A stretch of DNA of 64,000 bases. Source: Porphyridium purpureum. Taxonomy: Eukaryota; Rhodophyta; Bangiophyceae; Porphyridiales; Porphyridiaceae. Position 1 is the stretch's first letter, and the number at the start of each line of letters is the position of its first letter. Below are positions 21,596 to 41,080 of this stretch, piece by piece. The translations under genes and the position numbers were made by a program. A model generated the notes under the pieces. It saw only the letters and a list, made by a program, of their open reading frames with translations. It had not been told where the DNA came from and ran no database searches. The stretch covers positions 5,642,001 to 5,706,000 of the forward strand of contig VRMN01000001.1 in the NCBI GenBank assembly GCA_008690995.1. Direction: 5' to 3'.

Positions 21596-22827
21596 GCCCG
21601 CGGGCGTCGTGACCAAGAGAAAGACCGGACAGCGCAAGGTCCCTTGATGCACCGTCACGGTGACGGTGATGCACTTAGTTTTGTGGGTGCTCGGGTACGC
21701 GCAGTGCGCGATCTGTGAAGAAGCAATCGCGTGCTTGCGACACGTTGCGCTTGTCGCAGGCTGCTGCCGGTACGCGAGTGTTCTGTGTTGTCTGGCAGAA
21801 TGCACAGCACGCGCGGCCTCGGAGTGAGATATCCCTTTTGTCTGACTTTGCGTCATAGGGGCGCCGCGACGCGGGTGCTCTTAATCGACATCAAGTGCTT
21901 CTTCGGTCTACAGTAAAGTTGAAATACCTTCCGATCACGTTTCTCTTCACCATGACGGAAACACAATCAAAGAGGAAGGCCGTGCATGACGTGATTTTGT
22001 AGCAGCTGAGGTTCGAAAAGCGATCGCACGTGCGGCGCCTCTCGCGTTTAGGACGCCACGGTGGGTGTGTGGCGCCACGATCGACCTCGCGCCTCTGGCG
22101 CTGCGTATTCTTCTCCCGATCTACTTAGCAGAACGCAGGCATGGAAAGTAGGCTGCGCACTGACTCTAGCGTCGGATGGAAGGGCACTGGATGGTTTCCC
22201 GGGACGTGGATCACGATCTGCCGGTGTTTGGAGAGCCAGGCGCCTCGGATCGCAAACTCCCTCACAAGGAGCAACGACAAGCATGTGCTGCGTCATCTGC
22301 CAAGATCACTCACGCGCATGCATTGACCTTGCGGAACGATAAGACAGGAAGAACAAAGCGCAGTTGGTGCACGGGTGCTTTTCGGCGCCGCCACGAGCGA
22401 GAGTGCGCCGCAGCATACGATGTCTGCTCCGGGGCACCCGCGCTCGCCGGCGCCGAAAAGCACCCACCCGCTGCTTGCGATCACACTGAACGTCGTCCTC
22501 CCTTGACGGCATCAATCACGTGCACCGCACGCCACATCGCTCGTCCATGGAGCGCCCTTCGCAGGGCGGACGATCTCCTCCCTCTCCGTCCGATCCCAGC
22601 GTGTGTGCCGCCGTCACCCGCTTAACAGACCGCGCGATGCAGGGCAGAACCCTAATGGAGCTCGGCACTCACCCCGAGTCTCAGACCGCAGCCGGAGCCA
22701 CGGAACTTGTTGCGCGTGCGCGAGCGTGTGTTTGCGCGCTACGCTGGCGGCCGTCTGTGCTCAGACGCCACGCGCGATACCTTGCTTGCTTGCCTTGTTC
22801 TGCGTGTGATCGCAGCGAGTTGCTGCC
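21596..22827. other. 1.2-kb intergenic region
   Basis: The region between QCR9 and HUS1 (both plus) has several short GC-rich open frames on both strands, none with a recognisable domain. A short inverted repeat with arms like CACCGTCACGGTGACGGTG lies near 21,650, just after QCR9, and could form a hairpin in the 3' region. No tRNA or mobile element is seen. Confidence 0.45.
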
Positions 22828-27129: not shown

Positions 27130-28212
27130 GCTCAGACGCCTTGCTCGACCGGCGCGGAGCGCTTACTTCTGGCACCTCCAAAAAAAGCAGGCGCTTGATG
27201 GGCGCCGAATGAGGCAGAAGATCAGTGACGGAGCGTGCGACGACTCGGACCGACGTCGTGCGTTCAAACCGAAGCGTGGTGCAATGTGAGAGCCTCAACA
27301 AGAGCGCTCGAATGCAACGCTCCGCCGTGCGGGGCACACTCCGGGACGGTGCGAGCGCGCGGCTGCACGAGCGACCGCGTCGCGCACCGTGCCACTTTCT
27401 TCCCCCCGGACCCCTTTGTTCCTCTGCGCGCAACGTGCTCCCTCCCCCCTCTCGCCCAATCGCATTCGCACCCTTTGCCATCCGAGCTCGCACACTGTCG
27501 CCTCGTCATGTGCTGCCCAAACCCTAGCGCTAGGGTTCCGGACAGCAGTACTCTAGGGTTAGATGGTTGCCCCAGGTGCAATTTCAACGTCTGAACTCCA
27601 GTTTTACAGTAAAAACGAGCGTTTTCATATAAAATCAATGTTTATCCCTTTTTTAAACATATTTTTGTCCCCCATGTCAGAGTGTGAAGATATCACTGTA
27701 CACAGCCACTTTATGCAGGAGCCGGAGCACGTGGGGTCGCGAACCGCGACGTGTCCTGCGGATGGCGCGAAAGGCGGAAAGGGTGCAACGACCCCTCGCC
27801 GTGCTGGCAGGGCGTCGCAACCCGTCCGGGCTGCCGTGCAATTACTCTCGGGGACAAGCACGTCCGCACATGCAGCGCGTGTTGCCTTCACCTGCCCTGC
27901 AGGGCACACCGTCGCATTATATAAAGAGCGCCTCGCCCCACGATTGCATGCGTAGGGCTTCAGTAAAGGAAGTAAGGTGAATACAGGAGAATAGCAGTCT
28001 TCACTTGCAAATCATCATGGCGCTCACCTTCGGTAACACCATCCCCACGGTTCTTTCGGGCATGCCTGTTCAACACAGAGGTATGCGCGAGCTTTTGCGG
28101 GACCTCCATGAGGCCATGAAGGGGTTCAGGACATGTGCAAGAAGACCAACACATCTGCTGCACTCGGGCACAAGATCGCGACCAAGTCCAGCGGCCGCAA
28201 GCATCGGAAATT
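27130..28212. other. Intergenic region between DYRK and the Tc1 transposase
   Basis: The first 400 bases probably hold the DYRK promoter and leader. A perfect 18-base palindrome of telomere-like units lies at 27,520-27,537, with another such unit at 27,553-27,560. From about 27,590 the DNA becomes AT-rich, and it may mark the left flank of the Tc1 insertion. I could not identify a terminal inverted repeat that matches the other side. Confidence 0.5.
27520..27537. repeat. Palindrome of telomere-like units, AACCCTAGCGCTAGGGTT
   Basis: The 18 bases are their own reverse complement and consist of two head-to-head AACCCTA / TAGGGTT units. A third unit, CTAGGGTTAG, follows about 15 bases on. In plants this unit (telo-box) is both the telomere repeat core and a promoter element of ribosomal and cell-cycle genes. 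It lies about 390 bases upstream of the DYRK start. A role here is inference. Confidence 0.7.
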
Positions 28213-29265
28213 ATGGCACCACGGCTCTCCGACTTTGAGAAAGGCCAGATTGACGTTCTGCACCGGCTCTTGCTGACGCCGCGGGCCATTGCAGCACGTC
28301 TTCGTCCGCGACCAGACAAGACTCGACCATCGTACAAGACTGTGGAGCGATTTTTTAAGAATCGAGGCAAGAAAAGGGTTTTCAAGAAGCCCGGACCGGC
28401 ACGGACAATATCGCCGAAATTGGAGCGTCGCCTGATTCGGCACGTCATTACGGATAGGTTGACGTCTGCACAGGCAGTGACGGAGCTGCAGCTTGCGTGC
28501 AGTGCGAGAACTGTTCGTCGTATCCTGCAGAGATCACCAGAGGTTCGTATTGTCGCGCAGAGGCGAAAGTTCTTCATTTCGGAAAAGAACCGAGTCAAGC
28601 GGCTTGCATTTGCTCGAGAATACGTTCAGAAGCCGCTATCGTTTTGGAAGAACGTCATCTTCTCGGATGAAAAGATCTTTCGGCTGGACGGGCCGCACGG
28701 GTACAACAAGACTTATCAGCGCACGCAAGGCCCTGAGCCCGCGCCAACCATGCGTCGCCATAGTGGCGGAGGATCAGCGATGGTTTGGGGTGCCATGCCG
28801 TCGCACGGACTGAGTACGTTGCATCGTGTTCAAGGCTCGCTGAATGCCGAGCGATATCGGCAGGTTATGCTGAACGTGATGATGCCCTGGGCACTGGAAC
28901 TGCCTTGGCGCCTTGATCAGCCGGATTGTCCATTCATATTTCAGCAAGATAATGCGCCCGGACATGCAGCGCTGAGCACGCGCGAGCTGTTTGACACGGT
29001 TGGAATCGCACTACTTGATTGGCCAGCGCGGTCGCCGGACTTGAATCCAGTTGAGAATCTGTGGGCGATCGTTTTTCGCCGTGTGCATTGGCAAGGACGC
29101 CAGTTTATGCGCCTCGATGACATGCTTCCAGTTATCTATGACTGCTGGCGAACGGAAGCGCCAAAGTATGTTGAGGTACTTTTCGAGAGCATGCCCCGTC
29201 GCCTGCAAGCTTGCACCGACGCCGGTGGCCGTCAAACCAAGTACCAGTTCCGTCACTACAGTTAA
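28213..29265 (+). mobile_element. Tc1/mariner-type DNA transposon, DD34E transposase, intact frame
   Basis: The 350-residue transposase starts MAPRLSDFEKGQIDVLHRLL (helix-turn-helix) and continues through the second DNA-binding region to a DDE catalytic core. The first Asp is in VIFSDEKIFRL, the second in IFQQDNAPGHAA, and the Glu is in WPARSPDLNPVENLW, with 34 residues between the second and third acids. That is the Tc1 DD34E signature. The frame is open from end to end, so this copy may be young or functional. It is open back to 28,135, but the ATG at 28,213 gives the usual transposase start. I could not locate convincing terminal inverted repeats or a TA duplication by eye, so the element's outer ends are not defined. 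A decayed relative lies at 49.8-50.9 kb. Confidence 0.93.
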
Positions 29266-29505
29266 ATCTCTTCTCATAAACGTACTTGTCCTCATCAACC
29301 TATTTCATTGTATTTCTTTTCTGCGGCCCTTCTCACAGGCGTCTCACTGTTCTACGATGCCTTTCTACGCCCTTACCGTTTTTCCGTGCCGCGGATTCGT
29401 TTCGAGCAATCAAAGAGGACGACGTCCTGGTAGAAAAGTTGAGTTTTTCACAAAAAAACCTTCATCTCACCGTCTGGGACAATTAACTTGGCCTGGACTA
29501 CAATT
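29266..29505. other. Spacer between the Tc1 gene and repeat A
   Basis: This AT-richer stretch should contain the right end of the Tc1 element. I see no gene and no clear terminal repeat. Confidence 0.4.
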
Positions 29506-29694
29506 CCGGGAAAAGTCCAAACGTTGTACGGTTGGCCCCTTAAAAGACCGAAAGACGCAGGTTCGGCCCCGTTTGGGACTAAAAACATGCAAACGTATAC
29601 AAATCATTCGGAACCAACTTTAGCAGAAATCACCTAGCAAAACAACACCGTTTCAGTGCCAAAAAGAATCAAAAAAGTTTCACAGCCGCACGAG
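29506..29694 (+). repeat. Dispersed repeat, copy A (left edge of the bacterial block)
   Basis: About 190 bases align closely to copies B (34,221-34,424, same direction) and C (40,561-40,756, inverted). Shared stretches include GGTTCGGCCCCGTTTGGGAC, TTCGGAACCAACT and AGCAAAACAACACCGTT. Copy A stops being similar right at CCGCACGA, where the mscS-like sequence begins. It may be part of an uncharacterised non-autonomous element or a solo terminal repeat. No protein was recognised in it. Confidence 0.8.
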
Positions 29695-30940
29695 CCAGGC
29701 GTTCATCGCGAGCTGATCCATTCTCTCGTGCGACCGTGGTACGTGCCGACGCTCCTGGTGATCGGCGCCTCACTGGCGGCGGCGTTCTTAACCGGCGACA
29801 GCGGCCGGGAGGCCTTCGACCACGCGATCATATGCGCTGTCTTATTGATGCCGGCGCTGGTGGCCACCGAATTTGATACGCCTGCAACGCGATCGGTTCT
29901 CTCGCACGCCACACAAATGTCGATACATTCGGCAGCTCCAGCATTTCGGCCCCGCGGTGGCCTATTTTATCGTCCAGTGCCTGTTCCCTGCGCCAGCGTT
30001 GCGGGTATGGGGGCTATAAGTGCTGGGTATCGGCGAGCCGCAAGCGTTCGGCCCGCGTGTTGACCATGCGCTGCTGGATATGATCCTGACCGGACTGATT
30101 GCCTGGCTGATTTAGATGTTTGCCGACAACGCCATCGAGCGGGCGCTCGACAGCGGCCCCGTCGGACAGATATAAGTCACAGCCAGGGCTCAGACCGTCA
30201 TGACCATGGTCAGCAACGCGGCGTTCTTCAGCATTGTCATCATTGCGGCGATCATCGGCCTGGCCAACCTGGGCGTCAACGTCACGCCGCTGCTCGCCGG
30301 CGCCGGGATCATGGGCGTGGCCGAGGGATTCGGCGCCCAGACGCTGGTGCTCGATATGATCACCGGTCTTTTCATCCTCATCGAGAACACCATGGCGGTG
30401 GGCGACTGGAATAAGATAAATGGCCTCCGGGGAGGCGTCGAAAGCCTTAATCTGGGCAGCGTGTACATGCGGGACATCGATGACACCGTCAATTCCATCA
30501 TCTTCAGCCAGATCTACTCGGTCCAGAACATGTCCCGCCAGTGCGGTATCGCGCTGCGCAAGATCCGCATTCCATACGACATGCCCATTGATCATGCCAT
30601 GACGCTGATGAGGGACACGGCGGAAGATCTGCGCAGGGACTCCGGCATGCACGATTTGATGTGGTGACCGCTGGGAATGCAGGGTATCCATGCTTCCGAG
30701 GACGGCTGTCCGATCCTGCGTATGCGAGTGCGTACCGCGCCCGTATGTCAGTGGAATGCCTTGCGCGCGTTCAGCCTACTGCTCAAACAGCGCACGGAGG
30801 AGCGGTATATCACCCTGGGCGCGCCGCGCATGAGCATCAGTGTGGAAGCGGGCGGTGGCCAGCACTATGATCGCCACGGCAAAGCAGAACCAGAAACGTC
30901 GAATAACGTCTCAGAGCCGCAGCCTGGGGTGGCGAGTTAG
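29695..30940 (+). pseudogene. mscS: Decayed bacterial mechanosensitive channel gene (mscS family)
   Basis: Two reading frames carry pieces of one bacterial-type MscS protein in the right order. The first piece (to about 30,063) has transmembrane sequence such as RPWYVPTLLVIGASLAAAFL. The second (30,200-30,667) has the pore and beta-domain core, with LLAGAGIMGVAEGFGAQTLV and FILIENTMAVGDW, the hallmark of MscS (AGIxGxAxGFGAQ...VGD). A third piece, 30,677-30,940 (RTAPVCQWNALRAFSLLLKQ), is the C-terminal domain. At least one frame change lies between pieces one and two, and an in-frame TGA at 30,665-30,667 separates pieces two and three. The gene looks prokaryotic rather than algal and is non-functional. 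It shares its block with a broken haemoglobin gene and an intact metE. Confidence 0.85.
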
Positions 30941-30991
30941 AAACCGTGCGAGCAGGCGACTGCGCTTGTTCGCCTGCCGCCGGTGTGCAGA

Positions 30992-31345
30992 TCACGCAAC
31001 CTCCTCGCGATAGCTCGCGATGATATCCATGAATTCGTTGACCTCCTGCCACGGTACGCCCACGCTCTAGAGCGTGCTGCGGATCTCGTGCGCAGTCACG
31101 TCGACTTCGTAGTTGCTGAGACCGAGATCACTGTGCGCCTTGAGCTTATCCTGGGCTGGAGAGTATCTCGGGCCGCTGCCGACCTCGATACTCCAGGCCG
31201 TCACCATGAACTCGTAACCCGCCTTGTACTGCTCGGCGAGAAAGCTCTTGAGTTATCATTGGCGTTGATAAACGTTCCTTTCTCGTGAACACTGTCAATC
31301 AGATCATCGGCCACGGTCGTGATCGCATTAACATCGCCCAACTTG
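30992..31345 (-). pseudogene. Decayed group 1 truncated haemoglobin gene, bacterial type
   Basis: Reading the minus strand gives DKLGDVNAITTVADDLIDSV, then after a frame change near 31,250 AEQYKAGYEFMVTAWSIEVG, then KLKAHSDLGLSNYEVDVTAH and VGVPWQEVNEFMDIIASYRE, ending at the stop 30,992-30,994. The order LGG..AI..VVDDF, then His near a short helix, then LGVP plus a C-terminal helix is that of group 1 truncated haemoglobins of bacteria. An in-frame TAG near 31,064 and the frame change show it is broken. No single intact frame spans it, which is why it is easily missed. It lies downstream of metE on the same strand. Assignment is by eye and moderate; block membership is firm. Confidence 0.6.
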
Positions 31346-31574
31346 TCACGGAATCTGTCTTATCATGTATCTCTCCACACATTCAGTGCTTTCAATTTTT
31401 ATCCTGTGTTTCCACGACTATCTGCCTACGCCTACTTGCCGGCAACGAATCTTCAACTCTCTAATGGTGCACTACCAAATAGCGAAAAATTTGGAATGCT
31501 GTCTTCGTTTGTTGGAGCAGTAAAAATGCCACTCGGGTCAGGTCCGAATGGCGCCAAGCCAAGAAGCCTCTGAC

Positions 31575-33860
31575 TTATCCAACGCAGATGGCCTTAGCCG
31601 CCCGCAGCTCGCGCGCCGCATCGACCATGTGAATGAGCGCCTGCTCGACCTCAGCCCAACCGCGAGTCTTGAGGCCACAGTCGGGGTTAACCCAGATTCG
31701 CTCGGGCGGCAGTACTTGAGTGGCCTTCCTGAGCAGGTCGACCATTTCCTGTGTGGCAGGCACACGCGGGCTATGGATGTCGTACACGCCCGGGCCAATC
31801 TCATTCGGATAGTTGAACTTCACAAACGCATCCAGCAGCTCCATCTGCGAGCGCGAAGTCTCGATGGAGATGCAGTCGGCGTCCATATCCGCGATCGCTT
31901 CGATAATATCGTTAAATTCCGAATAGCACATATGGGTGTGCACCTGGGTCTCATCAGCCACGCCGCCGGCAGTGAGCCGGAAGCTCGCAGTCGCCCACTC
32001 CAGATACGCCTTCCAGTCTGCCTGGCGAAGGGGCAGCCCCTCGCGGAAGGCAGCTTCATCGATCTGAATCGCAGCCAGACCGGCGGCTTCCAGATCTACT
32101 ACTTCGTCGCGAATGGCGAGTGCGACCTGCTTGACCGTTTCGGACCGCGGCTGGTCGTCGCGTACGAACGCCCATTCAACCATCGTCACTGGCCCGGTGA
32201 GCATGCCTTTCATGGGCTTGTCGGTGAGCGATTGAGCGTATTTGGACCATCTGACCGTCATCGGCTCGGGCCGGGACACGTCACCGAAGATGATGGGAGG
32301 CTTAACGTAGCGACTCCCGTAGCTCTGTACCCAACCGAACTTGGTGAAGGCATAGCCGGCGAGCAGCTCGCCGAAATACTCGACCATGTCGTTCCGCTCA
32401 AATTCGCCATGCACAAGCATGTCAAAGCCCATTTTTTCCTGCATCTTCACAGCGTCGACAATCTGCTGTTCGACAAACGCGTTGTAGCCAGCGTCCGACA
32501 GATCGCCGCGTTTGTGATCCGCACGTGCTTTGCGCACTTCGGCGGTCTGCGGAAACGAGCCGATGGTGGTGATCGGAAATGCCGGCAAGTTCAGCTTGCC
32601 GCGCTGTTTCTGCGCTCGCTCAGTATAGGCCGAATGACGCTTGTAGTCATCTTCCGTAACGGCCGCGACACGTTTTTTGACCGATTCGTCGTGGATGCGC
32701 GCCGAGTTGGCGCGGTCGACCATCGCCCGCTGGTTGGTAGACAGCACGGCCTGGTCGACGTTGCCGTCAACCGCTTGTGCCAGGAACACAATCTCGTCGA
32801 GCTTCTCTTCCGCGAAGGCCAGCCAGTTGAGAAACTCGTCGTCAAGCTTGGTTTCGCTGCGCAGCGTCACCGGCACATGCAACAGCGAGCAGCTCGGGCC
32901 GACCATGAGGCGATCGGACCCGAGCTTACTCCTGACCATATTCAGCGGACCAATGGCGCGCTCGAGGTTGGTTTTCCAAATATTTCGACCGTCTACGACG
33001 CCCACCGATAGCACAGTCTCGCCGCCCAGTCGGGTAGCCACGGTTTCGACTTCCTTGACGCCGCGCACCGCGTCAATATGCAGTCCAGCGACCGGCAGCG
33101 AAGTAAACAATTCAATGTTGTCACGCAGCTCGCCAAAGTAGTGGGCGACCATGATTTTAATGCCCTTGACCCCGGCCAGGGCGTCATAGGCTTTCTTGAT
33201 CACCTCGCGCTGTGCATCGTTTAGGTCCAGCGCGAAGATGGGCTCGTCGAGCTGCAGCCACTTGGCGCCGGCGGCTGCCAGCTTCTCAGCGATTTCCACG
33301 TAGACCGGAATCAGTTGGTCGGCCAGTGCAAACTTATCCAGGCCGGAATCGTCGGTCACCTTGCCCAGTGACAGATAAGTCGCCGGCCCCACCATCACCG
33401 GCTTGGTAATAATACCCTGGGCTTTGGCTTCTTCAAATTCGTCGAAAATCTTGCGACCGGCGAGCTTGAACGCAGTCTGCCGAGTGAACTCGGGTACGAG
33501 ATAATGGTAGTTGGTGTCAAACCACTTGGTCATCTCGCAGGCTATCGCTTCCCGCGTGCCACGCGCCATGTCGAAAGCAACATCAATCGTTGCATTGTTT
33601 CCATTCCAGGCGAAGCGCTCAGGTACGTTACCCACCAGACACGACTGGTCGAGCATCTGATCGTAGAACGAGAAATCGTTCGACGGGATCAGCTCAATAC
33701 CGGCTTTCTTCTGTTTTTCCCAGTTGCTGCGGCGCAGCTCGGCGCCGGTCGCCGCGAGCGAGGCGTAGTCGGCATCGCCTTTCCAATAGGCTTCCGTGGC
33801 CTTTTTCAGCTCACGGCGCTCGCCGATCCGGGGAAAACCGAGGTTGTGTGCAATCGTCAT
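31575..33860 (-). CDS. metE: Cobalamin-independent methionine synthase MetE, bacterial origin
   Basis: The 761-residue frame is fully open and full length for MetE (about 750-760). It moves a methyl group from 5-methyltetrahydropteroyl-triglutamate to homocysteine without vitamin B12. The N-terminal half starts NLGFPRIGERRELKKATEAY. The catalytic half has the homocysteine site FPITTIGSFPQTAEVRKAR, HGEFERNDMVEYF, the zinc ligands His and Cys in THMCYSEF and Cys in WVNPDCGLKTRGW, plus SIETSRS. The protein resembles proteobacterial MetE and has no transit peptide. The ATG at 33,860 was chosen because it is the family start and a Shine-Dalgarno-like AAAGG lies 9 bases before it. It sits between decayed bacterial genes and host repeats, so it looks transferred. 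Whether it is expressed is unknown. Confidence 0.95.
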   Translation of the reverse strand: MTIAHNLGFPRIGERRELKKATEAYWKGDADYASLAATGAELRRSNWEKQKKAGIELIPSNDFSFYDQMLDQSCLVGNVPERFAWNGNNATIDVAFDMARGTREAIACEMTKWFDTNYHYLVPEFTRQTAFKLAGRKIFDEFEEAKAQGIITKPVMVGPATYLSLGKVTDDSGLDKFALADQLIPVYVEIAEKLAAAGAKWLQLDEPIFALDLNDAQREVIKKAYDALAGVKGIKIMVAHYFGELRDNIELFTSLPVAGLHIDAVRGVKEVETVATRLGGETVLSVGVVDGRNIWKTNLERAIGPLNMVRSKLGSDRLMVGPSCSLLHVPVTLRSETKLDDEFLNWLAFAEEKLDEIVFLAQAVDGNVDQAVLSTNQRAMVDRANSARIHDESVKKRVAAVTEDDYKRHSAYTERAQKQRGKLNLPAFPITTIGSFPQTAEVRKARADHKRGDLSDAGYNAFVEQQIVDAVKMQEKMGFDMLVHGEFERNDMVEYFGELLAGYAFTKFGWVQSYGSRYVKPPIIFGDVSRPEPMTVRWSKYAQSLTDKPMKGMLTGPVTMVEWAFVRDDQPRSETVKQVALAIRDEVVDLEAAGLAAIQIDEAAFREGLPLRQADWKAYLEWATASFRLTAGGVADETQVHTHMCYSEFNDIIEAIADMDADCISIETSRSQMELLDAFVKFNYPNEIGPGVYDIHSPRVPATQEMVDLLRKATQVLPPERIWVNPDCGLKTRGWAEVEQALIHMVDAARELRAAKAICVG

Positions 33861-33869
33861 GGGTGCAGA

Positions 33870-33874
33870 CCTTT
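33870..33874 (-). promoter_or_regulatory. Shine-Dalgarno-like AAAGG before metE
   Basis: On the minus strand AAAGG ends 9 bases before the metE ATG, a normal bacterial spacing. This short match supports the chosen start and the bacterial origin, but it would have no role in a eukaryotic nucleus. Confidence 0.5.
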
Positions 33875-33948
33875 GACTGAAATCCACCAAACACCGACGA
33901 ATGCTTCCGCTCGACGCGCTACGACGCAGTCTACGGCGCCCTACGAAT

Positions 33949-33974
33949 GAAAAACTTTGATCTCAAAGTTTTTC
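33949..33974. repeat. Perfect inverted repeat, 12-base arms, 2-base spacer
   Basis: The arms GAAAAACTTTGA and TCAAAGTTTTTC flank the dinucleotide TC. The repeat lies 89 bases upstream of metE, where the recognisably bacterial sequence gives way to DNA with no detected similarity. It could be a bacterial terminator remnant, a hairpin at the junction, or a transposon tip. The structure itself is certain. Confidence 0.85.
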
Positions 33975-34220: not shown

Positions 34221-34424
34221 TCGGGAAAGGGATGGTGAGTTCAAATGTCGTTCGGTTGGCCCCCGCGAAGGACCGAAGGAGGCAGGTTCGGCCCCGTTTG
34301 GGACCAAGAACGTGCAAGCGTTCGCAAATCTTTCGGAACCAACTGTGGCAGAAATCGCCTAGCAAAACAACACCGTTGTAGTGCAAAAAAAAATCAAAAC
34401 GCTTCACGGCCGCACGAAGGTGTA
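34221..34424 (+). repeat. Dispersed repeat, copy B (right side of the bacterial block)
   Basis: This copy matches A (29,506-29,694) in the same direction and C (40,561-40,756) in the opposite direction. B and C share a slightly longer end, CCGCACGAAGGTGTA, than A. With A it brackets the bacterial block as a direct repeat. The short open frames across it are similar between B and C only because the DNA is similar. Confidence 0.8.
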
Positions 34425-34455
34425 CAGTTTTTGACATTCAATGTTTGAAGGGACT

Positions 34456-35248
34456 TGGAATTTCTCCCTTTCTGCTTTGTAACCGAATCAACAAAACCGG
34501 ACCGCTTCACCGATAACAGGAACTGGAAACCGCCACACCCCGGAAACTGACAAACCGATGACGAACCGACACACCGAAACGAACGGAAGGACAAGCAGGA
34601 CAATCAGAGAAAAGTGGCTAGAAAGGAAGAGAGGACAGAAAATTCAACTTATAGGGGACTACGAGAGGGAGTGGACCGGTCTTGACAAGTGAAGGGTGAT
34701 GGAAGGTACGTTTAAACCCCAGCTGCCTTTTTAAAAACACTCCAGACCGATATCCGCTCGCACAACACGCTAGCGTGCCTCTCCCGCAAATCCAACCCAA
34801 GTCTTCCAACGACTGCCTCAATCCAACTAACCAATTCTCTTTTTATTCTATTTGCCCTTACCTCTTCTTCTACCTTGACCTGGAAATTCCTGGGAACCAG
34901 CTTGCCCCTTCGTCCTTTTATACCCTTCGTCCTTGCTCTTTCCAGCAAGGACGGGAGAACAAATTTCTCCAACAGGACGAATTTCCACCACAGGTTTTGA
35001 TTCGTTCCACAACTCGCAACCACAGCCGGCCACGTATCCGGAAAATGGCCGGGAGGGCGCGTCAAGAACGAATCCAGAAGCTTCGGCCGGCCTTTGACCT
35101 TTGCACAAGGCCACACAAAACGACAATGACAAACATTTCGCAGGTCCGAGATCATCACGCTTCTCGAACAATCTTTCATCATAGAACTTTCTAGGGTTTT
35201 GTACTCAAAACCCTACGGCGTCTCTCGGGGCGGAACCCTAAAATTCCA
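34456..35248 (-). repeat. 3' LTR of the Copia element
   Basis: This 793-bp LTR lies at lower coordinates and is the 3' LTR because the element reads on the minus strand. Its termini form the short inverted repeat TGGAATTT / AAATTCCA. Near its upper-coordinate end it contains a hairpin made of TAGGGTTTTG and CAAAACCCTA (35,192-35,215). The last 11 bases overlap the end of the pol frame. Confidence 0.95.
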
Positions 35249-38200
35249 CGCTCCTCCTTCCGGTCTGAGGGACGCGTAACTTCTCCCAGCACTTAATGTG
35301 GCCCTCCGGAAATAAGGCCTTGGTCATTAAGTCCGCCACATTTTCGTCCGTCTTCACAAATGCCAGTTTCACAAGTTTCTGCTTTTCGCACACCTGATGC
35401 AACCAGGCCAAATCTGTTGCTCGGGTTATCGCCATATGATGCAACTTTGGCGAGTACCCCATCTCTATTGCTCGCATCACAGCTTGATTGTCACACATCA
35501 AAATCACCGAGAACTCTCCGTCACGTATACTTCGCAAGAAAGACAATGCAGGAAACAACGAGAGTTGCACAGTTTCCTCTAGGGCGGCCAGCTCCGACTC
35601 TGAAGTCGACGAGCTCACGAAACGCTGCTTTCTTGAAGACCAATCCACTAGGTACTTGTAATCTCCAGCAACTAAGTACGTTGCTCTTCCAGAAGTCGAC
35701 ACACGACTCTCTGGACAACCAGCAAAGTCAGCATCCGTGTATCCAAGAATGTTCACCATTCTGATGCCTTCCTTGAGATTCCCCAACACGTGATACTCCA
35801 ATGCTTCCCGAGGTGTTTTCAAATACTGCACGACTCGTACGAGCAGCCTTTCTGCTGCCACATTCCACTTGTCAACGTACCGGGCAATCATACCGACTGC
35901 ATACGCAATATCAGGTCGAACCGTTCTGGCGAGCCACATCAGCCTCCCGACGTGTTCTCTTACTTTCAAAGTCTTCCAGATGACTTGATAATTCAGAACT
36001 TCCTCGCCATCTAGCTTCTCAGATGGTGACTTCACGGCACGCAATACGCGTCTAATATCCTGCTCAAATTCCCGAATGACCACATCTTGATACTCTTGAT
36101 TCGCCAAACTCACGCTCCCATTTTTGAGGGAAATGCTCGTCCCCAGGAATCTCAAGGATCCTCCTTCCGTCAATAGTTCTGGTGCTTTTTCTATGAGAAA
36201 CTCTTGTTTCAATTCTTCGATGATTCCTGGGCGTTCCTCCTCTCGACAGGCTAATAGACCATCATCCACGTACAGAGCCAACAACGCAACTGACGAACTT
36301 GCAGCATTTCTCCGGACGTACACATTCTTTTCACCATGCACGAGCTTCCACTGGAACTTTTGCAATCTCCTCCGAGCATCTTGTGAGAAATCCGAGCCGC
36401 TCCTGGGCAAGCCATACAGCGCCTTTCTCAGCCTGACTACTGTGTCTTTTGAATCACAAATTTCACGCGGTAAGTATGCAAACGTAGGTGGCCCAGACAG
36501 GTCCGCATGGAGGTATGCCGAGCTGATGTCGAAACTAACAATCTGAAGGCCCAGAATTGCAGCCACAGCTATTATCATTCGGATAGCTGACAAACCAGCA
36601 GGCGTCTCATAATCAAAAATGTCATTCGTCGCAGCTCCATCGGACCCCCATATCCTGTTTCCCCCGGCCACCAAGCGGCACTTCACCTTGCGAAATTCTT
36701 CCGGCATCTCAGCAAATTTCAGACCGAAAATGAAATGTGTGCGTACGAAACGAGCACCAGGTTGCCTCCGGGCCTCCTCCAGCGTCAAGGGATTCTCATC
36801 CCATACCCCAAATCTCAGCATGGATTTGACTTCTTTTTCCATCGCGGCTCGTCCTTGCTCAGACGCTAACGCCGCTCCAGTTTTCAGCAAAGTCGTTAAG
36901 TTCAACTGTGGGATCGTCACTGGACCACCCGTGCCTGCTGCCCGTTCCTCGTCAACCACTCTCACTTTCAATGCCTCGATCTCTTTCTCAAGCTCCGCTT
37001 CTCGAGCTCTGAGAGCATCGATACGACGATCCAAGTCCTGCACCGCTTCAACCGCGGATGGTTCGTCCACTTCTGGCAACTCTTCCTGCTGGCTCAGGCT
37101 CACCATCTCTCGTTCAATTCCCTTTAAAGGGAACTCATGGGTAAATGCCTTAAAATCCTGAGTGCGAATTACTTTTGGGGTCTCACTCGTCCAGTCATCC
37201 CGAGGAAGCACCAAAATTGCCATCGGATGCTCTCCAACGCCGACGAGAATGCCAACTTTTCCTCGCGGTGCATACTTATTGTCAGGCTGATCATCTTTGT
37301 AGACCACCTTGCACCCGAATGGCAAACTAAGATTTCTCGGCGACCATTTTTCACCACGTCGTAATTCAAACGGCGTCTTTCCAGACTTCCTGCCCACGTG
37401 AAGTCTATTCGTCATGAACGCAAAATGCTGCGCGGCGTGCATGAACCAACGCTTCCCGAGTCCGGCCTGCACAAGATTCGCACGGATTCCCTGATTCAGC
37501 GTGTGGTGAAACCGCTCCTGTTCAGCATGACTGTTTGGCCTGTACGGAATCCCCACCTCGTGCTTTATGAGGTGTTCACGCACCAGTCTCCCCACATCTC
37601 CCTTGAACTCATTCCCATCATCCGTTCGCAAAACCTTCGGCCATCCTCTCCCGGCTTGCACACTTTTCCAAGCGTCCGCAACCGCCGTGTGGGTTTTCGC
37701 ACGTAGCCCCGCCAATGTCACCCATCCTGTGGCTCTGTCGATATGCGTCAAAATAAACTTTGAACCATCTACCGACTTCACATTTCGCCCAGGCTCCACC
37801 AAGTCAATTCCGACTTCATCATTGAATGACAATGCACTGACATCTTTCTCCAGCCTTCGGGCCGGGCGTCGCTTTATCTTCGCCACGACACACGTCTCAC
37901 AGTCTCTTTGCATAGGCATGTGAGTCAACTCGTGTTCCGAAGCAGCCACGCTCTGATTTTTCCCGTCAAGCTCGGGAACCACTTCTTCAACATTTTCCAA
38001 CGTGCATATTTCCTTCCCCTCGGGCCTCGTTTCCATCAGTCCCTTCTGCCAATCAATCTTAGGATTCACCATCTTGAGCCATTTCCACCCTAAGATGGCA
38101 TCCATACGAATGGGACCGATATAAAACTCGACGTTCCCTATCCAGAAACCGAGGTCCACCGCAAGCACAATGGGGCCGTGCACCTTCATTCTCTGTCCTC

Positions 38201-38402
38201 CCGCAAGCTCGACCATGCATTCATCGCAACTGGACTTTACGCTTGCGTCCAAGAATCGGGACCCCAGGAAATTATGCGACGCTCCACTGTCAATCAAGAA
38301 GTCGATTTTTGAACCACTCACTTTCCCATGTTTGTAGAAGAGCCTTGACCTCGCACCCTCGTGCGCAACACCTTCCACAACACCCATTACAGGAGGCTCC
38401 AT
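35238..38402 (-). CDS. Copia pol polyprotein (fossil element gene)
   Basis: The 1,054-residue open frame carries, in order, an aspartic protease (IDFLIDSGASHNFLG), an integrase with the zinc-binding His/Cys region (CETCVVAKIKRR) and catalytic core (LRTDDGNEF), a reverse transcriptase (LALYVDDGLLA) and an RNase H (GYTDADFAGCP). The integrase-before-RT order identifies Ty1/Copia. It belongs to the element at 34,456-40,212. Confidence 0.95.
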   Translation of the reverse strand: MEPPVMGVVEGVAHEGARSRLFYKHGKVSGSKIDFLIDSGASHNFLGSRFLDASVKSSCDECMVELAGGQRMKVHGPIVLAVDLGFWIGNVEFYIGPIRMDAILGWKWLKMVNPKIDWQKGLMETRPEGKEICTLENVEEVVPELDGKNQSVAASEHELTHMPMQRDCETCVVAKIKRRPARRLEKDVSALSFNDEVGIDLVEPGRNVKSVDGSKFILTHIDRATGWVTLAGLRAKTHTAVADAWKSVQAGRGWPKVLRTDDGNEFKGDVGRLVREHLIKHEVGIPYRPNSHAEQERFHHTLNQGIRANLVQAGLGKRWFMHAAQHFAFMTNRLHVGRKSGKTPFELRRGEKWSPRNLSLPFGCKVVYKDDQPDNKYAPRGKVGILVGVGEHPMAILVLPRDDWTSETPKVIRTQDFKAFTHEFPLKGIEREMVSLSQQEELPEVDEPSAVEAVQDLDRRIDALRAREAELEKEIEALKVRVVDEERAAGTGGPVTIPQLNLTTLLKTGAALASEQGRAAMEKEVKSMLRFGVWDENPLTLEEARRQPGARFVRTHFIFGLKFAEMPEEFRKVKCRLVAGGNRIWGSDGAATNDIFDYETPAGLSAIRMIIAVAAILGLQIVSFDISSAYLHADLSGPPTFAYLPREICDSKDTVVRLRKALYGLPRSGSDFSQDARRRLQKFQWKLVHGEKNVYVRRNAASSSVALLALYVDDGLLACREEERPGIIEELKQEFLIEKAPELLTEGGSLRFLGTSISLKNGSVSLANQEYQDVVIREFEQDIRRVLRAVKSPSEKLDGEEVLNYQVIWKTLKVREHVGRLMWLARTVRPDIAYAVGMIARYVDKWNVAAERLLVRVVQYLKTPREALEYHVLGNLKEGIRMVNILGYTDADFAGCPESRVSTSGRATYLVAGDYKYLVDWSSRKQRFVSSSTSESELAALEETVQLSLFPALSFLRSIRDGEFSVILMCDNQAVMRAIEMGYSPKLHHMAITRATDLAWLHQVCEKQKLVKLAFVKTDENVADLMTKALFPEGHIKCWEKLRVPQTGRRSVEF
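35249..35262 (-). other. Polypurine tract of the Copia element
   Basis: On the minus strand the purine-rich GGAAGGAGGAGCG directly precedes the 3' LTR, the expected place for plus-strand priming. It supports the LTR boundary at TGGAATTT. Confidence 0.7.
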
Positions 38403-38440
38403 TCCCCTCGAGATCTCCTCCTGTCTTGGCTCTCGAGGTC

Positions 38441-39388
38441 TTAGTTTTCCGGCTCTGGCGGACCACCTGCCAAGCGCTCCTTCAATTTAGGGCATTTGGG
38501 CTTAATGTGTCCACGTTCTCCACAATGGTAACACTTCACTTTGGTCTTGCCAGACTTCCGCTTGTCCATGGCTCCCAAATCCATTGGTGCGCTACCAGAA
38601 TGCGACGAGAACGCCCTGCTATGAGTCGATGACGAGTTCTTGATCACTTGACTCATATCTCCTCCGAACTTTGCAACCTGCTCAGCTGCCAACGCAACTT
38701 TCAGTGATTCTTCCAAGGTCCTTGTGTCCTGACGGGCCACCTCAATACGCAGTTTCTCCTTCAAGCCCAGCGTGAAGATGGTGTTCAGTTCTGCATCTGT
38801 CACATCTTCAACTGACAACGCTGTCATCCTGAGATTCTGCTCAAATTCTGCGACCGTCATTTTCCCTTGCTTCAACTGATACAGATTGGTGCGCGCTGTC
38901 AAATGCGCCTGCGGCGGCTCAAACGCTGTGCGCACGAAGTTTGCGAACGCATCCCATCCGGCCTCTGCAAGGCCCTTTCTCTGCTCCTCCGGACGAGCTG
39001 CCCAAAGCAGCGCTGCGTCCCTCTCGAAAAAGCGACTTGCAACAATCACTTTCTGCGAGTCCAAAGCATCTGCGGGCATGCAGATATCCAGGTCGCTCTT
39101 CATTCGCATCAGCCATTCATTGACAACGAGCTTGTCACGCTGACCATCAAACTTTCTCAAACTGCGCCCAATTAACGCGGCCATGGCACGATCGTTGTCA
39201 CCAGACCCAGACGCCACGGTCTGCTGGCGCAACAAAACTTGCATCATTTCATGGAGGTTACGATTCGCTTCCTGCACTTGTGCCATCATCATCTCCTGTC
39301 CCGCAATGCGCGCATGCAGCTGATTAGCTGCCTCAATCCATGCCGCATTCTCCTGCGGGACATTCATTTCCATTTCATGGCTTTCCAT
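38441..39388 (-). CDS. Copia gag protein (element gene)
   Basis: About 315 residues. The N-terminal part is helical and Gln/Met-rich. The middle matches the retrotransposon gag domain (RSLRKFDGQRDKLVVNEWL; TNLYQLKQGKMTVAEFEQNL). The C-terminus has one CCHC zinc knuckle, CYHCGERGHIKPKC. The frame opens a little further upstream into the primer-binding site, so the ATG near 39,388 is the likelier start. Confidence 0.9.
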   Translation of the reverse strand: MESHEMEMNVPQENAAWIEAANQLHARIAGQEMMMAQVQEANRNLHEMMQVLLRQQTVASGSGDNDRAMAALIGRSLRKFDGQRDKLVVNEWLMRMKSDLDICMPADALDSQKVIVASRFFERDAALLWAARPEEQRKGLAEAGWDAFANFVRTAFEPPQAHLTARTNLYQLKQGKMTVAEFEQNLRMTALSVEDVTDAELNTIFTLGLKEKLRIEVARQDTRTLEESLKVALAAEQVAKFGGDMSQVIKNSSSTHSRAFSSHSGSAPMDLGAMDKRKSGKTKVKCYHCGERGHIKPKCPKLKERLAGGPPEPEN

Positions 39389-39401
39389 TCTCTCCAAACA
39401 A

Positions 39402-39417
39402 CCGGGCGATGATACCA
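39402..39417 (-). other. Primer-binding site of the Copia element
   Basis: Read on the minus strand, TGGTATCATCGCCCGG starts two bases after the 5' LTR. The TGGTATCA core is the usual complement of the initiator methionine tRNA 3' end used by Copia elements. Confidence 0.75.
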
Positions 39418-39419
39418 CT

Positions 39420-40212
39420 TGGAATTTCTCCCTTTCTGCTTTGTAACCGAATCAACAAAACCGGACCGCTTCACCGATAACAGGAACTGGAAACCGCCAC
39501 ACCCCGGAAACTGACAAACCGACGACGAACCGACACACCGAAACGAACGGAAGGACAAGCAGGACAATCAGAGAAAAGTGGCTAGAAAGGAAGAGAGGAC
39601 AGAAAATTCAACTTATAGGGGACTACGAGAGGGAGTGGACCGGTCTTGACAAGTGAAGGGTGATGGAAGGTACGTTTAAACCCCAGCTGCCTTTTTAAAA
39701 ACACTCCAGACCGATATCCGCTCGCACAACACGCTAGCGTGCCTCTCCCGCAAATCCAACCCAAGTCTTCCAACGACTGCCTCAATCCAACTAACCAATT
39801 CTCTTTTTATTCTATTTGCCCTTACCTCTTCTTCTACCTTGACCTGGAAATTCCTGGGAACCAGCTTGCCCCTTCGTCCTTTTATACCCTTCGTCCTTGC
39901 TCTTTCCAGCAAGGACGGGAGAACAAATTTCTCCAACAGGACGAATTTCCACCACAGGTTTTGATTCGTTCCACAACTCGCAACCACAGCCGGCCACGTA
40001 TCCGGAAAATGGCCGGGAGGGCGCGTCAAGAACGAATCCAGAAGCTTCGGCCGGCCTTTGACCTTTGCACAAGGCCACACAAAACGACAATGACAAACAT
40101 TTCGCAGGTCCGAGATCATCACGCTTCTCGAACAATCTTTCATCATAGAACTTTCTAGGGTTTTGTACTCAAAACCCTACGGCGTCTCTCGGGGCGGAAC
40201 CCTAAAATTCCA
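39420..40212 (-). repeat. 5' LTR of the Copia element
   Basis: Direct repeat of 34,456-35,248 at a constant offset of 4,964 bases, with the same TGGAATTT / AAATTCCA ends. The near identity of the two LTRs implies a recent insertion. Confidence 0.95.
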
Positions 40213-40560
40213 CGAGGGAACTCTGACGTCACACTTGGCACAAGAACTCAACAGTTTCGCATCGTCATCGCGGATGGGCAAAGTTTGGGGAGCGACGGCA
40301 CAGTTTATGCACGTCAGGTGAAGCCGCGAGCAGAGCCTCTGCGTCAAACTCCCACATGCGGAACGGCATCATAGAGAACACCATCGAAGAATCGATTCCA
40401 CCTCTACATCGAGAGCCGCCTCTGGCCGGGAAGTCCTGGGCACCTTGTGCGCGCGCCGCTGCAGTCATTCCGATCTACGAGTGTGCAGAAGGCCGCCGCG
40501 AGATGTGCTGAGTGTGGCCGATGGATGTCCAGAGTTTGAAGCCAGAGTTCCTCTGAAACT
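40213..40560. other. Flank between the Copia element and repeat C
   Basis: Unique-looking DNA with short open frames on the minus strand, none recognised. It is the right-hand flank of the Copia insertion. Confidence 0.4.
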
Positions 40561-40756
40561 TTACACCTTCGTGCGGCGGTGAAACATTTTGATTCTTTTT
40601 GCACTACAATGGTGTTGTTCTGCTAGGCGATTTCTGCCAAAGTTGGTTCCGAAAGATTTGTGAACGTTCGCACGTTCTTAGTCCCAAACGGGGCCGACCC
40701 TGCGTCTTTCCGTCTTTTGCCGGGGCCAACACCACGACATTCGGGCTTTTTCCCGG
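40561..40756 (-). repeat. Dispersed repeat, copy C (inverted relative to A and B)
   Basis: The reverse complement aligns with copies A and B over about 195 bases, from the CCGGGAAAAA side to CCGCACGAAGGTGTA. It lies beyond the Copia element, so B and C form an inverted pair around that insertion. Two telomere-like units (CCTAGGGTT and CTAGGGTTT) follow at 40,794-40,820. Confidence 0.8.
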
Positions 40757-41080
40757 AGTAGTACAGTGGCATAGCTGTCCTTCTCTCTGTAAACCTAGGG
40801 TTCCTCTCAGTCTAGGGTTTCCCCTCCGCAGCTCGACAGGATCACGCGCGGCCGTGCGGTGTGGAGGAAAGCGGGGGCGAGAAAGTGGGGGGGGTTTGGT
40901 GGAATGCGGCAGGGGGTGGTAAATATCTCGGCGTGTTTGTGTGTGTTGTGAGAGTTGACGCGGGGTGAGTTGGTGGAACGGCGGGTGCAATCGCGGGTGC
41001 GAGAGACGCGTTGGTGCGCTTCGGTGGTAGCGCGGCGTGACGGTGGTTGTGTATTGCATGGACGGCGCACGCCCGTGCGC

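Follow-up and report, generated by a model that had tools for sequence, protein, structure and literature searches.

The cobalamin-independent methionine synthase MetE methylates homocysteine with methyl-tetrahydrofolate as the methyl donor, and a host that possesses it needs no B12 for methionine. A 2024 survey (PMC11439496) reports that METE proteins from Porphyridium and from Cyanidioschyzon group with bacterial ones, probably as a result of transfers, judges the Porphyridium transfer to be common to related strains, and lists P. cruentum as having METE and lacking METH. The bacterial origin of Porphyridium METE is therefore already published, and two reviews cite Porphyridium purpureum as being supplied with B12 by Halomonas (PMC5706373, PMC9323062). 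The gene that we describe here resembles the METE of that survey (PMC11439496) in being a complete eukaryotic METE that resolves with bacterial homologues; what it adds to the survey's passages on this transfer is genomic context, a donor group, and decayed neighbours. No description of a block combining mscS, globin, and metE was found in the literature passages searched. New here are the linked dead passengers, the donor group that they share with metE, and the internal neutral control that they provide.

We analyzed a stretch of 64,000 nucleotides from the P. purpureum assembly, referred to below as the window, in which the block and its surroundings are arranged as follows.

29499..29693, plus strand: copy A of a host-type dispersed repeat, in which the shared sequence stops at the mscS remnant
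29693..30942, plus strand: mscS remnant, corresponding to the latter half of a gene for a YbiO-like channel; four in-frame stops interrupt it, as does at least one frameshift
30995..31341, minus strand: remnant of a group 1 truncated haemoglobin gene, with one frameshift and one in-frame stop
31342..31574, no strand: low-GC stretch (GC 0.459) between globin and metE
31575..33860, minus strand: metE, intact, 761 aa, B12-independent methionine synthase by open reading frame, domain, and tree evidence
33861..33880, minus strand: short metE leader resembling the bacterial leader of genome G844 by nucleotide alignment
34238..34430, plus strand: copy B of the host-type repeat
40556..40763, minus strand: copy C of the host-type repeat, a control copy distant from the block

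The metE frame runs on the minus strand from an ATG at 33860 to 31575 and comprises 761 codons plus a stop, with no internal stops. Its product matched Meth_synt_1 (E 4.6e-123) and Meth_synt_2 (E 2.7e-154) in Pfam as well as the NCBIfam equivalog NF003556 (1142.5 bits versus a cut-off of 541), the scores from both collections exceeding their cut-offs. The motifs HTHMCYS, IETSRS, and NPDCGLKTR were all found, and the His/Cys/Glu/Cys set was recovered by motif as H643, C645, E667, and C728, which we take to be the zinc-binding residues. At the 3′ end the stop codon of the relatives is missing, and the window frame closes three codons later. At the 5′ end, alignment with G844 extends to 33880, i.e., approximately 20 bases ahead of the start, and the leader TCAAAGGTCT.CAC.C precedes the ATG in both sequences; among the three relatives compared, G844 alone matched the window in this leader. 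Antisense to metE, an open frame of 487 codons occupies 31548-33011 on the plus strand and is probably a by-product of codon bias. A short inverted repeat that looks perfect lies upstream of metE at 33949-33974.

Both neighbours of metE are broken. Homology to mscS starts within a few bases of 29693 and corresponds to approximately residue 432 onward of an 872-residue relative, only the second half being present; a 155-aa piece matched NCBIfam PRK11465 (YbiO-like) at E 1.7e-27. The window piece is thus like the YbiO-like channels of Halomonadaceae and of the gammaproteobacterial order discussed below (60-64% to its relatives), from which it differs in being a pseudogene, namely half a gene with stops and a frameshift. 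The globin remnant, queried as a read-through translation with X placed at the breaks, was 52% identical over 117 residues (E 1e-30) to WP_152477266.1, a Roseovarius plasmid protein annotated as a group 1 truncated haemoglobin, but it too is a pseudogene by virtue of its frameshift and stop. The globin pieces gave no Pfam matches, even at E 1, and no NCBIfam matches. Disabling mutations and loss of constraint were found in both remnants. No counterpart of the low-GC stretch at 31342-31574 was present among the 23 bacterial stretches. By homology and nucleotide matches, the earlier note was right to place an mscS, a truncated haemoglobin, and a metE of bacterial type side by side, to call the first two broken, and to describe metE as fully open over 761 residues with all its zinc ligands.

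That note had also described host-type repeats and transposons on both sides, as was indeed observed. Copies A and B of a ~190-bp dispersed repeat lie in the same direction on either side of the block, and copy C is inverted; copy A ends approximately 12 bases before the equivalent end of copies B and C. A Tc1-like transposase frame lies to the left of the block and an RVT_2 (copia-type) element to the right, and in the assembly host repeats and genes border the block on both sides. The other frames of the window are eukaryotic, long, and single (kinesin, Hus1, STI1/HOP, kinases, and a Rubisco-LSMT-like SET protein). Of the block limits proposed previously (29695-33974), the right edge is too far out, since metE homology stops near 33880. 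Several features of these surroundings can be recorded in their own right. The Tc1-like transposase (28135-29265) is 376 aa long and has an inverted second copy at 50694-49835 that is 66% similar. The copia-type LTR element at 34453-40214, beside repeat copy B, has 798-bp LTRs that differ at one position and borders with an apparent 5-bp duplication, AGGGA; it is a recent insertion. A 95-base inverted repeat with 80% self-complementarity lies at 22373-22465, and scans of the whole window with Rfam and for tRNAs returned no matches.

Given this setting, bacterial contamination or a chimeric assembly is a very improbable source of the block. Two of its three genes are decayed, host repeats abut it, and its DNA is at most 78% identical to any relative found. 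Moreover, a bacterial-type METE is common to related Porphyridium strains according to the 2024 survey (PMC11439496). Third-position GC points the same way: the value for metE (0.723) is under that of eight bacterial relatives (0.797-0.870) and within that of ten host frames (0.579-0.788). Base composition has not drifted alike across the block, since the main mscS piece is still high at 0.840.

The nearest relatives of all three genes are bacterial. At the DNA level, metE matched a bacterial relative at 78% over 2294 bases, i.e., the whole gene, the mscS remnant matched at 66-70% over 627-876 bases, and the globin remnant matched at 69-73% over 237-322 bases; each of these matches exceeds chance, and nothing above 78% was found for the DNA of the block in any relative. 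MetE matches at E 1e-150 occurred in 50 of 85 genomes of the gammaproteobacterial order that holds G436 and G832-G845, an order that we tentatively take to be Salinisphaerales. Full-length MetE of 71-83% identity was present in 14 of these 85 genomes, the next full-length match being 58%; the G436 copy itself is partial (71%), with only its C-terminal half in one frame. In MetE trees the window sequence nested within the group of this order with SH-aLRT values of 98 (9 rows), 96 (13 rows), and 100 (15 rows), these being quick searches over bacterial sequences plus that of the window, with support measured by SH-aLRT rather than bootstrap. The gene therefore lies inside a bacterial clade, as is expected of a transfer. 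It shares with the MetE genes of the order its full-length identity and, with G844, its leader; it differs from them in residing in eukaryotic DNA, in having lost the relatives' stop, and in having dead neighbours.

Other sources for metE were considered and set aside. A verrucomicrobial donor had been suggested by a first tree, which placed the window near Verrucomicrobiota (61-63%, the best among the matches listed), and was displaced because 30 of 240 Verrucomicrobiota had matches at E 1e-200 reaching at most 63%, versus 71-83% in the order of G436. Halomonadaceae carry metE at E 1e-255 in 100 of 151 genomes, but at no more than 60%, and the best plasmid match likewise did not exceed 60%. 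Five IMG/VR viral contigs (L143-L147) encode MetE relatives of 39-68%; the globin was not found in phage collections.

For the two remnants, relatives were again present in the order of G436: among the 17 genomes examined, MscS of 60-62% occurred in seven and globin of 55-59% in four, and relatives of all three genes were present in both G844 and G436. At E 1e-45, mscS was detected in three of 369 Gammaproteobacteria, one of them G436, and in a tree of 224 columns the window copy joined seven close rows of this order (SH-aLRT 95.5). Since this order contains relatives of every gene in the block, the most economical interpretation is one donor lineage.

A competing reading holds that at least two insertions took place, with mscS coming from a Halomonadaceae-like bacterium and metE, perhaps with the globin, from the order of G436, the pieces being joined in a repeat-rich locus. 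At E 1e-30, mscS was detected in 125 of 151 Halomonadaceae, which also provide the top identities (64-65% versus 60-62%), and forcing the window sequence to group with them cost 7.95 log units, an arrangement that passes the AU test (p 0.214). If mscS did derive from Halomonadaceae, mscS and globin would have different donors, since a search of 151 genomes of this family at E 1e-6 found no globin. The stretch without a bacterial match that separates globin from metE, and the lack of any relative with the genes adjacent, also speak for separate insertions; against them stand the occurrence of all three relatives in one order, the preference of the mscS tree for that order, and the similar fourfold-site divergence of the three genes (see below). 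We regard separate insertions as doubtful, and the phylogenetic check for one donor proposed in the earlier note has a divided outcome: MetE is nested as expected, and mscS groups with the same order at a strength that leaves Halomonadaceae acceptable to the AU test.

Gene order did not bear out the earlier suggestion of linkage between the genes in the donor. Each of the 23 bacterial stretches examined (12 around metE, 6 around mscS, and 5 around globin) contained one of the three genes, so that no two occurred together in any of them. More specifically, metE and mscS of G841 lie approximately 345 kb apart on one contig, globin and metE of G845 approximately 486 kb apart, and other copies are on separate contigs. 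In G844, metE and mscS lie on short contigs, of 9.4 and 13.3 kb, and linkage may for this reason exist in that genome. The order mscS-globin-metE of the window matches that of no relative known.

To compare metE with the remnants, we counted as unique changes those positions at which the window departs from a state shared by two relatives. The ratios of amino acid to synonymous codon changes were 67:125 for metE (757 codons; G844 and G837), 61:29 for mscS (215 codons; G841 and G844), and 16:9 for the main globin piece (61 codons; G843 and G844), the metE and mscS ratios differing at p 2.5e-7 (Fisher). The corresponding ratios on the relatives' own branches were 25:96 for metE (G844) and 5:19 for mscS. 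Since metE of the window has relatively more amino acid changes than the G844 branch (p 0.0075), its constraint is somewhat relaxed. The share of fourfold sites changed in the window was similar in all three genes (metE 71/301, mscS 15/70, globin 5/16; differences not significant, p 0.76 and 0.55); these samples are small and the values shift with the reference pair, ranging from 51/278 to 91/306 for metE, 9/47 to 16/54 for the first mscS piece, and 2/18 to 5/17 for globin. In contrast, of the positions that are invariant in the relatives, metE had changed at 6 of 424, mscS at 37 of 141, and globin at 27 of 81; the leave-one-out values for the relatives themselves were 1-16 of 425-440, 0-5 of 141-146, and 2-6 of 82-86, respectively.

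Pairwise NG86 dN/dS values tell in part against this contrast. For metE the value between window and G844 was 0.08, compared with 0.09 between relatives. The remnants had 0.30 (mscS, window-G844) and 0.25 (globin, window-G843), compared with 0.11 and 0.14 between relatives. Across pairs the mscS remnant ranged from 0.25 to 0.34, raised and yet not 1, as would be expected if the branch began in the bacterium; dS, at about 1, is also nearly saturated.

The earlier note had left two options, namely selection on metE or chance in a young insert. According to the latter, metE would be as unconstrained as its neighbours and simply not yet hit, and a lone open frame may survive by luck in such an insert. 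However, when G844 metE was given random changes at the rate and with the spectrum of the mscS remnant, it acquired a mean of 12.6 stops, and none of 4000 runs was stop-free, making chance a poor explanation; these simulations replace a Poisson calculation in which hand-set counts of 5 and 7 events gave 0.0017 and 0.0007 for no disabling event at all. The contrast between metE and mscS at invariant positions likewise counts against chance, and a nearest DNA match of 78% gives no support to a young insert. We therefore consider an unconstrained metE scarcely credible. Because fourfold divergence is alike in the three genes and only metE keeps its invariant positions, selection on metE after transfer is favoured, and of the two options it is the one that the data uphold.

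Should mscS and globin already have been pseudogenes in the donor, their decay would not date the transfer. The globin of G844 itself (L195) has an internal TAG, an observation that fits such a history and suggests that bacteria, too, may be able to do without this globin. Against it, the seven close relatives all have an open mscS frame, free of internal stops, the globin is open in three of four, and the change in mscS, at ~24% of comparable sites, exceeds what general knowledge would lead one to expect a bacterial pseudogene to survive. Prior decay in the donor is accordingly improbable.

Taken together, we consider it highly probable that the block is DNA from a gammaproteobacterium of the order of G436 in the host nucleus, of which two passengers decayed and metE was selected for B12-free methionine synthesis. 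The DNA of a bacterium from the order of G436 and G832-G845 would have reached the nuclear genome of the alga carrying metE, a truncated haemoglobin, and half an mscS, and would have ended up between copies of a host repeat. The globin and mscS, presumably of no use, would have decayed, and metE would have come under purifying selection because its product can make methionine from homocysteine and methyl-tetrahydrofolate without B12. We infer from the sequences that this was one event, that metE is expressed, that its enzyme is active, and that the benefit to the host is growth without B12. More tentatively, a single uptake may have been both the source of METE and the origin of two dead genes that serve as a built-in neutral clock, with pieces that lie far apart in the bacterium joined on entry; we put this forward as a possibility.

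Claims that a bacterial gene is under selection in a eukaryote usually cannot be set against neutral sequence that arrived with it. In the present case, constraint on metE is measurable against its passengers, because both lie within 2 kb and have similar fourfold divergence. The gene also bears on the live question of how far algae depend on bacterial B12: P. purpureum is cited as fed by Halomonas, in conflict with the presence of METE without METH in P. cruentum, and the locus makes that conflict testable. If the reading is true, a single uptake would explain why a textbook B12-consuming alga has METE without METH.
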